Positions 27,561 through 34,518 of a DNA stretch of 35,390 nt are shown here, one piece after another. Source of the stretch: Clostridia bacterium (GTDB lineage: Bacteria > Bacillota > Clostridia > Tissierellales > Dethiosulfatibacteraceae); NCBI GenBank assembly GCA_011390775.1, contig JAABRS010000006.1, positions 1 to 35,390 of the forward strand. The letters are read 5' to 3'. The position numbers and the translations under genes were made by a program. The notes beneath the pieces were generated by a model. It saw only the letters and a program-made list of their open reading frames with translations, did no database searches and had not been told where the DNA came from. Each line of letters starts with the position of its first letter. Position 1 is the first letter of the stretch.

Positions 27561-28538
27561 TTAATCAATAATAATTTTTTTATATTCTTTATAAATTTCT
27601 TTTTTATAATTTTCTTTATATTCTAAAATTCCATTGTTGATTTCAAAAGGATAGGCAAATAGAATTGAATCACTATAGATATTTTTTAATCTTTTAAAAT
27701 AATCTTTATTTATTCTAAAAAAATCTAAATTAATTTTATCAATTTTGGATAAATCAATTTTTTCTTTTAAATAATAAAACATGTCTTTATATATATTTAC
27801 CCCATTTTCTACCCTTAATACAGGTTCTATGAATATTCTAACCTTCCATCCTTTTATCAAAGCTTTGTTGATATTTATTATTCTTTTTTCTAATGAAGGT
27901 GTGTACTTCTCATATTTATCGATTATTATATTAGGAGATAAAGTCCAGGATAAAATAAAATTTTCCGCTGGTTCCTCATCTTCTATTAAGTTGAAATTAT
28001 TACTTTTAGTTCTAGATTCAAATTGTATATGAGGATTTTCCCTAGCAAACTTCATCCACTTTTTATTTAAACCGTGAATTTTTTCTAATGCCAAAAGATC
28101 TCCTTCATAGGAAAGACTTAAATAACTATTTTTTTTAAGCTTTTTTTTAACCTCTTTCATTATTTCATCATAATCTACAAAAATAACTATATTACTACTT
28201 GGATACATCCCCTTTAAAAAGCAGTATTCACAATCATAAGTACAGTTCATTAAATTAACTATATAATAGAAATCATTGTATCCAAAATCATTGCAAATCT
28301 CTGCACCTTTATATATTTTTTTTTCATTGCTTTTAGCAATAATTATATTTAAGTTCTCTTTTTGAAATTTATGGGATTGATTTTTTCTATTAAAAACATC
28401 TTTATAGTGTTTTATTTTAATTATTTTAAAACTTTTTAAATTGTGTAAAATTTCTTTTGTATATTTATTATCAATAATGTCTTCTTCGACATATACTTTA
28501 TTATTCTTTAAATATTTCAAGTTTTTCAGTGAGTTCAT
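27561..28538 (-). CDS. SPL-family radical SAM protein (spore photoproduct lyase-like)
   Basis: The protein has about 325 residues from the ATG at 28538, which has GAAGGA upstream; an earlier ATG at 28559 lacks a ribosome site. The N-terminus KVYVEEDIIDN resembles the start of spore photoproduct lyases. The radical SAM motif C-x3-C-x2-C is at NLMNCTYDCEYC, with FLKGMYPSSNIVIFVDYDE after it as in the SPL family. In SPL a cysteine in a short CTSD-like loop donates hydrogen to the DNA product; the equivalent place here reads SYEGDLLALE with no Cys. So this may be an SPL-family enzyme with another substrate. The gene overlaps the nucleosidase gene by 38 bases, so they are translationally coupled. 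Confidence 0.75.
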   Translation of the reverse strand: MNSLKNLKYLKNNKVYVEEDIIDNKYTKEILHNLKSFKIIKIKHYKDVFNRKNQSHKFQKENLNIIIAKSNEKKIYKGAEICNDFGYNDFYYIVNLMNCTYDCEYCFLKGMYPSSNIVIFVDYDEIMKEVKKKLKKNSYLSLSYEGDLLALEKIHGLNKKWMKFARENPHIQFESRTKSNNFNLIEDEEPAENFILSWTLSPNIIIDKYEKYTPSLEKRIININKALIKGWKVRIFIEPVLRVENGVNIYKDMFYYLKEKIDLSKIDKINLDFFRINKDYFKRLKNIYSDSILFAYPFEINNGILEYKENYKKEIYKEYKKIIID

Positions 28539-29331
28539 TATATTTTTTCCTTCTATCATCTTTATTGTCTGCTTCTACATTAGAAAAGCAACTAAATAAT
28601 TTAATTAAATCATTCCCTCTAACTTTGTAATCATAAGCTTTCTTTTTAAAATCAATTTCTAAATATTTTGATAAATTATAGTTTTTAGAAATTATGTTTA
28701 TTAAATTCTCTTCTCTAACTGAAAATTTAATTGGATTTATCTTTTTATCAGTATTTTCTCTTAAATTATTTATGTAATCAATAATTTTTTTCGAACTTTC
28801 TTTTACCAAACTTTTAACAAAGATTCTGTTTAATTTTTTATCTTCTTTATAATCTGAAAGGATTTTTATAATATGTATATTGTTTTGAAAAACATAATTT
28901 TGTGCTACTCTGTAATATGCTTCTCCTTCTAAATCTGTTAACCTTTCTTTCATAGATTGATTATTTATATCTTTACTCAAAATAGTTTCTAATTCAATTT
29001 CTTTAAAGGGATGTAAGTTAACATCCAGGAAGTACTCATCTTTATTAATACCCACAATCTTATTAATTATAAATATATCCCCAAAATTATATTTCTTGAT
29101 ACCACCAGCTATTCCTATATTTATCAATATATCATTTTTACTTTTATAGTACCTTGTAAATAAACTACTCAAACCTTCAGCCGCATTTATTATACCTGAC
29201 CCTGTTATCACAGCGATGATATCTTGATTTTTAAATATTCTAACCTTATTTATCTCATGTACTTTTTTTAAATTGAAAAATTCTATGAAGGGGTCAGCTT
29301 CTAATTTTAATGCAAAGCATAAAAAAATCAT
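28501..29331 (-). CDS. Nucleoside phosphorylase/MTA-SAH nucleosidase-like protein
   Basis: The 276-residue protein has the N-terminal strand IFLCFALKLEADPF, the GSGIINAAEGL loop (residues 44-54), NIGIAGGIKKYNFGDIFII near 70-88 and TDLEGEAYYRVAQ near 131-143, all matching the 5'-methylthioadenosine/SAH nucleosidase superfamily. After about residue 195 the C-terminus differs: it is helical and charged, with no recognisable domain. The family hydrolyses SAH, MTA and also 5'-deoxyadenosine, the by-product of radical SAM chemistry. Tight coupling to an SPL-type radical SAM gene fits removal of 5'-deoxyadenosine, but that is inference. Confidence 0.7.
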   Translation of the reverse strand: MIFLCFALKLEADPFIEFFNLKKVHEINKVRIFKNQDIIAVITGSGIINAAEGLSSLFTRYYKSKNDILINIGIAGGIKKYNFGDIFIINKIVGINKDEYFLDVNLHPFKEIELETILSKDINNQSMKERLTDLEGEAYYRVAQNYVFQNNIHIIKILSDYKEDKKLNRIFVKSLVKESSKKIIDYINNLRENTDKKINPIKFSVREENLINIISKNYNLSKYLEIDFKKKAYDYKVRGNDLIKLFSCFSNVEADNKDDRRKKYNELTEKLEIFKE

Positions 29332-32432: not shown

Positions 32433-32702
32433 CTATAGTTCATGCATTTTATTAAATATATCTTCTCTCTGTAATCTAACAGATAAACCCATTTCTTTTC
32501 CAATTTTTTCTAATTCATTCTTTAAATCAACTAGACTGATAGATAAATTTGAAATATCAACTAGCATTATCATAGTAAAGTATTCCTGCATTACCGTTTG
32601 ATTAATATCTAGGATATTAACATTTTTATCTGCTAATAATCCTGATATATTGGCAATTATACCAACCTTATCTTTTCCAATTATTGTAACAACTGATCTC
32701 AT
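32433..32702 (-). CDS. ACT domain-containing protein (UPF0237)
   Basis: The 89-residue protein is one ACT domain: [21 protein letters not shown] (residues 3-23) with the G-x-DKVG-I loop, then [27 protein letters not shown] domains commonly bind amino acids, including glycine and serine. It resembles GcvR-type single ACT proteins in this family. It lies between the riboswitch leader and the UPF0210 gene. The start ATG has AAGGAGG. Expression is expected to rise with glycine if the riboswitch acts as usual. Confidence 0.9.
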
Positions 32703-32719
32703 TTTTTCCTCCTTGAAAT

Positions 32720-32746
32720 AAAAAAATAAAAGACCATAAAGGTCTT
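32720..32746 (-). terminator. Riboswitch expression-platform terminator
   Basis: On the minus strand, AAGACC (32746-32741), a five-base loop and GGTCTT (32735-32730) are followed by a T-rich tract (TTATTTTTTTATTT). It lies between the glycine aptamer and the ACT gene ribosome site, as expected for transcription control. Confidence 0.75.
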
Positions 32747-32763
32747 CCTTAGTTATATATTAA

Positions 32764-32872
32764 TCTTTGTCCTTTTACCTGAGAGTTTCGTTTTACAACT
32801 TACCCCTTCGGTGCTCTTTCGAGTCTCTCCAAAGTTTTGTCCATATGCGGTCGACCTCTCTTCCTCATACTT
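32764..32872 (-). ncRNA. Glycine riboswitch (gcvT-type), one full aptamer with partial upstream aptamer remnant
   Basis: On the minus strand the full aptamer covers 32834-32765. P1 pairs CTTTG with CAAAG, P2 pairs GAGAG with CTCTC, P3 is capped by GAAA (CTC-GAAA-GAG), and the core ACCGAAGGGG and the segment CTCAGGTAAAAGGAC match the glycine-aptamer consensus. Upstream, GTATG can pair with CATAT around a purine-rich loop, and GGACAAAA follows, which looks like the remnant (ghost) aptamer of a singlet riboswitch. A terminator at 32720-32746 gives an off state without glycine, and binding would favour read-through. It controls the ACT and UPF0210 genes. Confidence 0.88.
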
Positions 32873-32895
32873 CATCCAATTATCTAATTTTTATC

Positions 32896-32924
32896 AGTAT
32901 ATGTTAAAACAAAAAAAATTTCAA
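32896..32924 (-). promoter_or_regulatory. Promoter of the glycine-riboswitch operon
   Basis: On the minus strand, TTGAAA (32924-32919), exactly 17 bases, TATACT (32901-32896). It sits just after the DUF445 stop codon and would start the riboswitch leader near 32889. Confidence 0.75.
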
Positions 32925-34326: not shown

Positions 34327-34344
34327 TACATCCTCCTTAAAAAT

Positions 34345-34518
34345 TAAAACCCACAGTGCCGTAATCCTTCTAATTCACGCCCGCTGGTTTGCAGGTGGGT
34401 GCTCTGTTCTCCAGTTCTGAAGTCCTGTAACAGGCTTTTCATCTCTAGAGAAACTCCGAACTCCCTTACTCAAAATGTCGGTTGAATTACTTGGATCTCG
34501 AACACCGCAGGTATTCTT
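34345..34518 (-). ncRNA. ssrS: 6S RNA (RNA polymerase-binding RNA)
   Basis: On the minus strand the closing stem ACCTGCGGTG pairs with CACTGTGGGT over ten pairs (34512-34503 with 34358-34349). Inside, the GTAAGGGAG, AACAGAGCACCCACCTGC and GCGGGCGTGAATT blocks match the clostridial 6S RNA type. The overall shape is one long helix with a central bubble that mimics an open promoter and binds the housekeeping holoenzyme. Its own promoter (34525-34553) puts the start near 34518. After the stem comes TTTTAATTTTT, which can end transcription. Length of about 175 is typical. The family was recognised by eye from these segments, not by a search. Confidence 0.8.

Follow-up and report, generated by a model that had tools for sequence, protein, structure and literature searches.

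Glycine riboswitches have been found in surveys to control genes of glycine metabolism, transporters and genes of serine metabolism (PMC3766115), and in C. difficile their targets are gcv, grd and a symporter (PMC11477304). The variety with which we are concerned here, the type-2 singlet of the RF00504 family, combines a single aptamer and a 5' ghost stem with a terminator and a short 5' UTR, and 90% of its members control transporters (PMC6944388). A functional precedent for such a regulator is provided by the singlet before the AGCS gene of S. pyogenes, which represses in high glycine (PMC5829553) and which we liken to our leader as a singlet, without reference to the position of its ghost. 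The target of the leader described in this work is not a transporter, but an operon of an ACT-domain gene and a UPF0210 gene, located in a stretch of 35,390 nucleotides from a Clostridia bacterium (hereafter, the window).

Both proteins of this operon have direct homologues in Streptococcus pneumoniae, SP0238 and SP0239, whose structures have been solved (PDB 1zpv and 2ha9) without a function having been assigned to them. To our knowledge, no link between SP0238/SP0239 and a glycine riboswitch has been described. SP0239 belongs to the same ECOD superfamily as ribonucleotide reductase (RNR) and pyruvate formate-lyase (PFL); no radical glycine was found in SP0239 and the protein was left without a functional assignment (PMC4390871).

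The leader and its two genes

The elements of the locus, all of them on the minus strand of the window, are as follows:

32924-32896, minus strand: candidate sigma-70 promoter, TTGAAA-N17-TATACT, with 10 of 12 consensus matches
32877-32843, minus strand: 5' ghost aptamer, GGATGAAG..GGAAG..CGACCG.., kept in 41 leaders
32842-32757, minus strand: aptamer of the glycine riboswitch, 65.8 bits with Rfam RF00504 and 78.5 bits with model R1
32748-32728, minus strand: intrinsic terminator hairpin, with a T-run on to about 32719
32714-32708, minus strand: ribosome binding site AAGGAGG, read from the sequence
32702-32433, minus strand: ACT-domain protein of the UPF0237 type, 89 aa (NF001220, Pfam ACT_6, PDB relative 1zpv)
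32419-31061, minus strand: UPF0210/DUF711 protein, 452 aa, TTG start (PF05167, NF003700, PDB relative 2ha9)

An earlier note on this DNA had placed a complete promoter, a glycine aptamer and a terminator before the two genes, and the interval 32433-32924 indeed spans the promoter, the leader and the ACT gene. A poor covariance-model score, which that note had named as a ground for abandoning the aptamer, was not obtained: in the Rfam cmscan of the window, RF00504 was matched over its full length (model 1-94) with 65.8 bits, twice the gathering score of 32 (E 1.1e-11), 55 nt upstream of the ACT-domain gene. The Rfam scan reported no second aptamer in the window leader, and because of the 5' ghost stem, an element that the earlier note did not name, the riboswitch is assigned to the type-2 singlets (classes according to PMC6944388). 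The terminator also stands, with the hairpin GGAAGACC-UUUAU-GGUCUUUU and the following AUUUUUUU preceding the ACT start at 32702 on the same strand; four terminator-like sites occur in the scanned region, compared to 0.5 expected from shuffles. The promoter is a plausible candidate: the TTGAAA-N17-TATACT string is present and a TATACT-type -10 element recurs at approximately the same position across many homologous leaders, but promoter-like matches do not exceed chance by count (21 found versus 22.7 expected, not significant).

Comparison of 41 distinct ACT-UPF0210 leaders revealed standard pairs in 91.7% of the cells of the combined ghost and aptamer structure, versus 84.5% in shuffles and 31-51% in slid controls, with a covariation score of 0.291 (0.167 in shuffles) and 11 pairs changed on both sides. 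In the ghost stem five of the seven pairs are changed on both sides and 90% of the cells are paired. The aptamer core is invariant in these leaders, while the stems covary. As judged by this comparison of sequences, the leader is an RNA of the glycine class, conserved by selection, with a terminator ahead of the operon; within this class the riboswitch itself is unremarkable, and its binding of glycine is predicted from sequence, structure and conservation.

Two further features of the window may be mentioned. A 6S RNA (RF00013, 87.6 bits) lies at 34344-34516 on the minus strand, between a PHP-domain gene and an addA-like fragment, and the protein encoded at 27561-28559 (minus strand) exhibits weak similarity to spore photoproduct lyase, with the Pfam SPL model above its cut-off and the NCBIfam models far below theirs.

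Distribution of the arrangement and other riboswitch targets

The DUF711 domain was found in 44 of the 150 sampled genomes of the order and in 259 of 391 of the class, as well as in control genomes of archaea, Lactococcus and Corynebacterium. An ACT gene lies upstream of it in 139/139 (counting loci long enough to judge), 218/219 and 108/108 loci of three sets that overlap in part. The riboswitch precedes the pair in 24 of the 26 assessable genomes of the order outside the family f3, and in none of the 11 assessable genomes of f3; the UPF0210-bearing f3 genomes among the matches listed contain no glycine riboswitch anywhere in the genome. It is further found in 29 of 108 genomes of Clostridiaceae (the family of G470), and is rare in the rest of the class (4/102). 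Among the named carriers are Maledivibacter halophilus, Anaerophilus nitritogenes and Alkalibaculum sporogenes, together with Clostridium akagii, C. caldaquaticum and C. frigoris. A link private to the source genome, against which the earlier note had cautioned, is ruled out by this occurrence in many genera. In all 62 loci (some genomes being counted under two handles) the ACT gene shares the strand of the aptamer and begins 59-373 nt downstream of it, and a terminator-like hairpin is present in 48 of these 62 leaders. Most ACT-UPF0210 loci in Clostridia, however, carry neither the riboswitch nor the T-box described below, and therefore it is the control that is clade-specific and not the gene pair. 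Two UPF0210 copies in Clostridiaceae (G673:C89 and G691:C32) contain in-frame stops, possibly owing to decay or to assembly error.

A tabulation of the genes downstream of glycine riboswitches, an approach suggested in the earlier note, found the 31 best-scoring riboswitches of the order among the loci covered to precede grdX (14), ACT-UPF0210 (10), trxB (6) and agcS (1). The trxB targets probably belong to glycine-reductase operons, and ACT-UPF0210 ranks second only to these operons (20) in the list, which is not a random sample because it is ranked by score. The other glycine riboswitch of the source genome, which was searched by the family only, is a tandem before grdX. In five genomes (G054:C3, G059:C1, G098:C33, G128:C2 and G143:C91), ACT-UPF0210 and grdX, each controlled by a riboswitch, are encoded on opposite strands with about 10 kb between them.

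In the papers accessible to search, we found no earlier report of a link between ACT-UPF0210 and glycine RNAs. Relative to these, the novelty lies in the target and, still more, in the fact that glycine T-boxes converge on the same operon.

Glycine T-boxes and the direction of the switch

T-boxes turn on when their cognate amino acid is scarce, by sensing uncharged tRNA. Such leaders (RF00230) replace the riboswitch in 14 of 108 Clostridiaceae loci (L268, L277, L278, L285, L287, L291, L295, L298, L302, L310, L321, L340, L341 and L351), which together contain 17 T-boxes, three of the loci being tandem; the proximal T-box ends 64-94 nt upstream of the ACT gene. In Clostridium muellerianum (L173), tandem T-boxes occupy the place where the riboswitch would be. 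All 17 match the full Rfam model (1-219) with 86-111 bits (E <=1.1e-17), 12 of them reaching the cut-off of 93 bits and five falling just short of it. Their specifiers are exclusively glycine codons, GGA or in one case GGC, and that of L321 reads as GGA or GGG depending on the register, both of which encode glycine. The bulge is UGGA in every case, compared to UGGU in the Rfam consensus, and UGGA suits U73 of tRNA-Gly. In all these respects the leaders resemble those found on glyQS, although their target is ACT-UPF0210 rather than a synthetase or a known transporter. From the specifier and the bulge they are predicted to respond to tRNA-Gly. No tRNA gene was seen within the loci examined, no locus combines a riboswitch with a T-box, and the window carries no T-box.

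Thus, two unrelated RNAs, both predicted to read glycine, converge on one operon. Since a glycine T-box holds in other Clostridiaceae the same position as the riboswitch, the operon very probably belongs to glycine homeostasis, and the conjecture of the earlier note that the pair works in glycine metabolism or sensing gains support from an independent quarter. When the leaders were mapped on a tree of 158 UPF0210 proteins, the label for the riboswitch required five changes, and riboswitch plus T-box seven. The T-box carriers are located on branches other than those of the riboswitch carriers, and therefore glycine control of ACT-UPF0210 probably arose more than once. The UPF0210 protein of an order member devoid of the riboswitch (G012, L004) groups with copies from Clostridium and lactic acid bacteria, which suggests a transferred operon.

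We consider it likely that the type-2 singlet terminates transcription of ACT-UPF0210, an operon of glycine homeostasis, and that it is OFF at high glycine. This direction is suggested by the T-boxes of the relatives, by the repressing S. pyogenes singlet, and by the position of the terminator, which in nearly all leaders lies at least 5 nt past the aptamer and has no bases in common with P1. With glycine plentiful, the aptamer would fold, the downstream terminator would form and the operon would be shut off; with glycine short, read-through would raise its expression. T-boxes would achieve the same outcome via uncharged tRNA-Gly and, given that they are on when the amino acid is scarce, the ACT-UPF0210 system may be expected to raise or spare glycine.

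The opposite polarity, in which glycine induces the operon and the pair disposes of excess glycine or responds to it, like gcv/grd, appears unlikely to us, even though the glycine-cleavage riboswitches are ON switches, the grd switch of C. difficile is thought to be ON (PMC11477304), and the source genome itself has its other glycine riboswitch on grdX. In ensemble folding, the aptamer also disfavours the terminator in the window leader, where the coupling is positive (+2.2 versus a null of -1.4) and thus opposite in sign to the mean of the leaders (-2.1 kcal/mol, versus -1.5 in the shuffled-platform null). However, with a null nearly as negative as the mean, and with the window leader leaning towards ON, we rejected ensemble folding as an arbiter of the direction. 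Complementarity between the terminator arm and the aptamer was also left unused, as the recurring AGAGAC(U) copy reached significance in no more than 7 of the 45 leaders. Against an ON switch stand the T-boxes, which turn on at glycine starvation at the same place in relatives; the predominance of transporters among the targets of type-2 singlets, the S. pyogenes transporter switch being OFF; and the separation of the terminator from P1, which is not the usual layout of an ON switch.

That the aptamer is real but recognizes another ligand, or is a functionless relic at this locus, we regard as very improbable: the f3 relatives do keep the genes without the riboswitch, but the invariant core with covarying stems speaks against it, as does the fact that other lineages gained glycine T-boxes independently. 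Finally, the notion that the RNA acts on some other gene, close by or further downstream, with ACT-UPF0210 as a passenger, to which the EamA-family transporter gene within about 90 nt after UPF0210 in the window (30974-30078) lends some colour, is hardly credible, as ACT-UPF0210 is directly downstream in all RNA-bearing loci and the genes beyond UPF0210 vary from genome to genome.

Possible roles of the ACT and UPF0210 proteins

The identities given to both genes in the earlier note are confirmed by family models above their cut-offs: the ACT protein scores 121 bits with NF001220 (cut-off 74), and the UPF0210 protein 746 bits with NF003700 (cut-off 440) and 640 bits with DUF711 (PF05167). Conservation of UPF0210 is unusually high, with a mean column identity of 80% among 29 class members and three invariant cysteines, C33, C145 and C362. 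Its AlphaFold model (pLDDT 84) matches SP0239 (2ha9) with TM 0.87-0.94, and in the Foldseek search class III RNR ranks next after 2ha9 (E 1.3e-3, probability 0.97). No glycyl radical motif was seen by eye near the C-terminus, and UPF0210 was thus not classed as a glycyl radical enzyme.

According to the family model search, the closest relatives of the ACT protein include GcvR and PurU, both of which respond to glycine. Because the ACT domains of these two proteins are its nearest characterised relatives, we infer by analogy that the ACT protein may bind glycine. It is not GcvR itself, as it comprises a single 89-aa domain where GcvR has two and scores 29.8 bits versus the 267 required; its scores with PurU models (about 25-30 bits versus 223-286) are equally far below the cut-offs. 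In the mechanism we favour, ACT would bind glycine and serve as the allosteric partner, whereas catalysis or an effector function would fall to UPF0210.

Comparison of gene neighbours found no conserved neighbour of ACT-UPF0210 and gave almost no functional clue. A metF-like gene (methylene-THF reductase) follows UPF0210 by 20-25 nt in two MAGs (L239:5381-6241 and L248:5651-6511), which may hint at a one-carbon link; we rejected metF as a functional neighbour, since just 2 of the 72 named loci have it in that position. A THF riboswitch near L209 was likewise set aside, as it belongs to a divergent folate-transporter-like gene.

Across whole genomes of the order, grdX is present in 18 of 44 genomes with DUF711 and in 96 of 106 without it (p 6e-10, kinship ignored); the corresponding counts are 0/17 and 9/14 inside f3, and 18/27 and 87/92 outside it. 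This tendency to exclude each other would agree with a function in retaining glycine and not in consuming it, and is to be regarded as a lead only, because ancestry is ignored in the counts. Eight f3 genomes of 99% completeness have no SHMT match, and six of these carry UPF0210. The relationship between SHMT absence and UPF0210 in f3 (p = 0.057, the genomes not being independent by ancestry) is likewise only a lead.

It is tempting to regard ACT-UPF0210 as an unrecognised enzyme system that supplies or spares glycine and is induced by glycine shortage, with ACT as the glycine sensor and UPF0210 as an RNR/PFL barrel that uses no glycyl radical and bears C33, C145 and C362; we offer this as a tentative and somewhat doubtful proposal. 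The pair is present in two thirds of the sampled genomes of the class, and the crystal structure of UPF0210, available since 2006, has had no function attached to it. Two unrelated RNAs predicted to sense glycine give the operon a concrete ligand and a pathway, and the open annotation of ACT-UPF0210 thereby becomes experimentally approachable.
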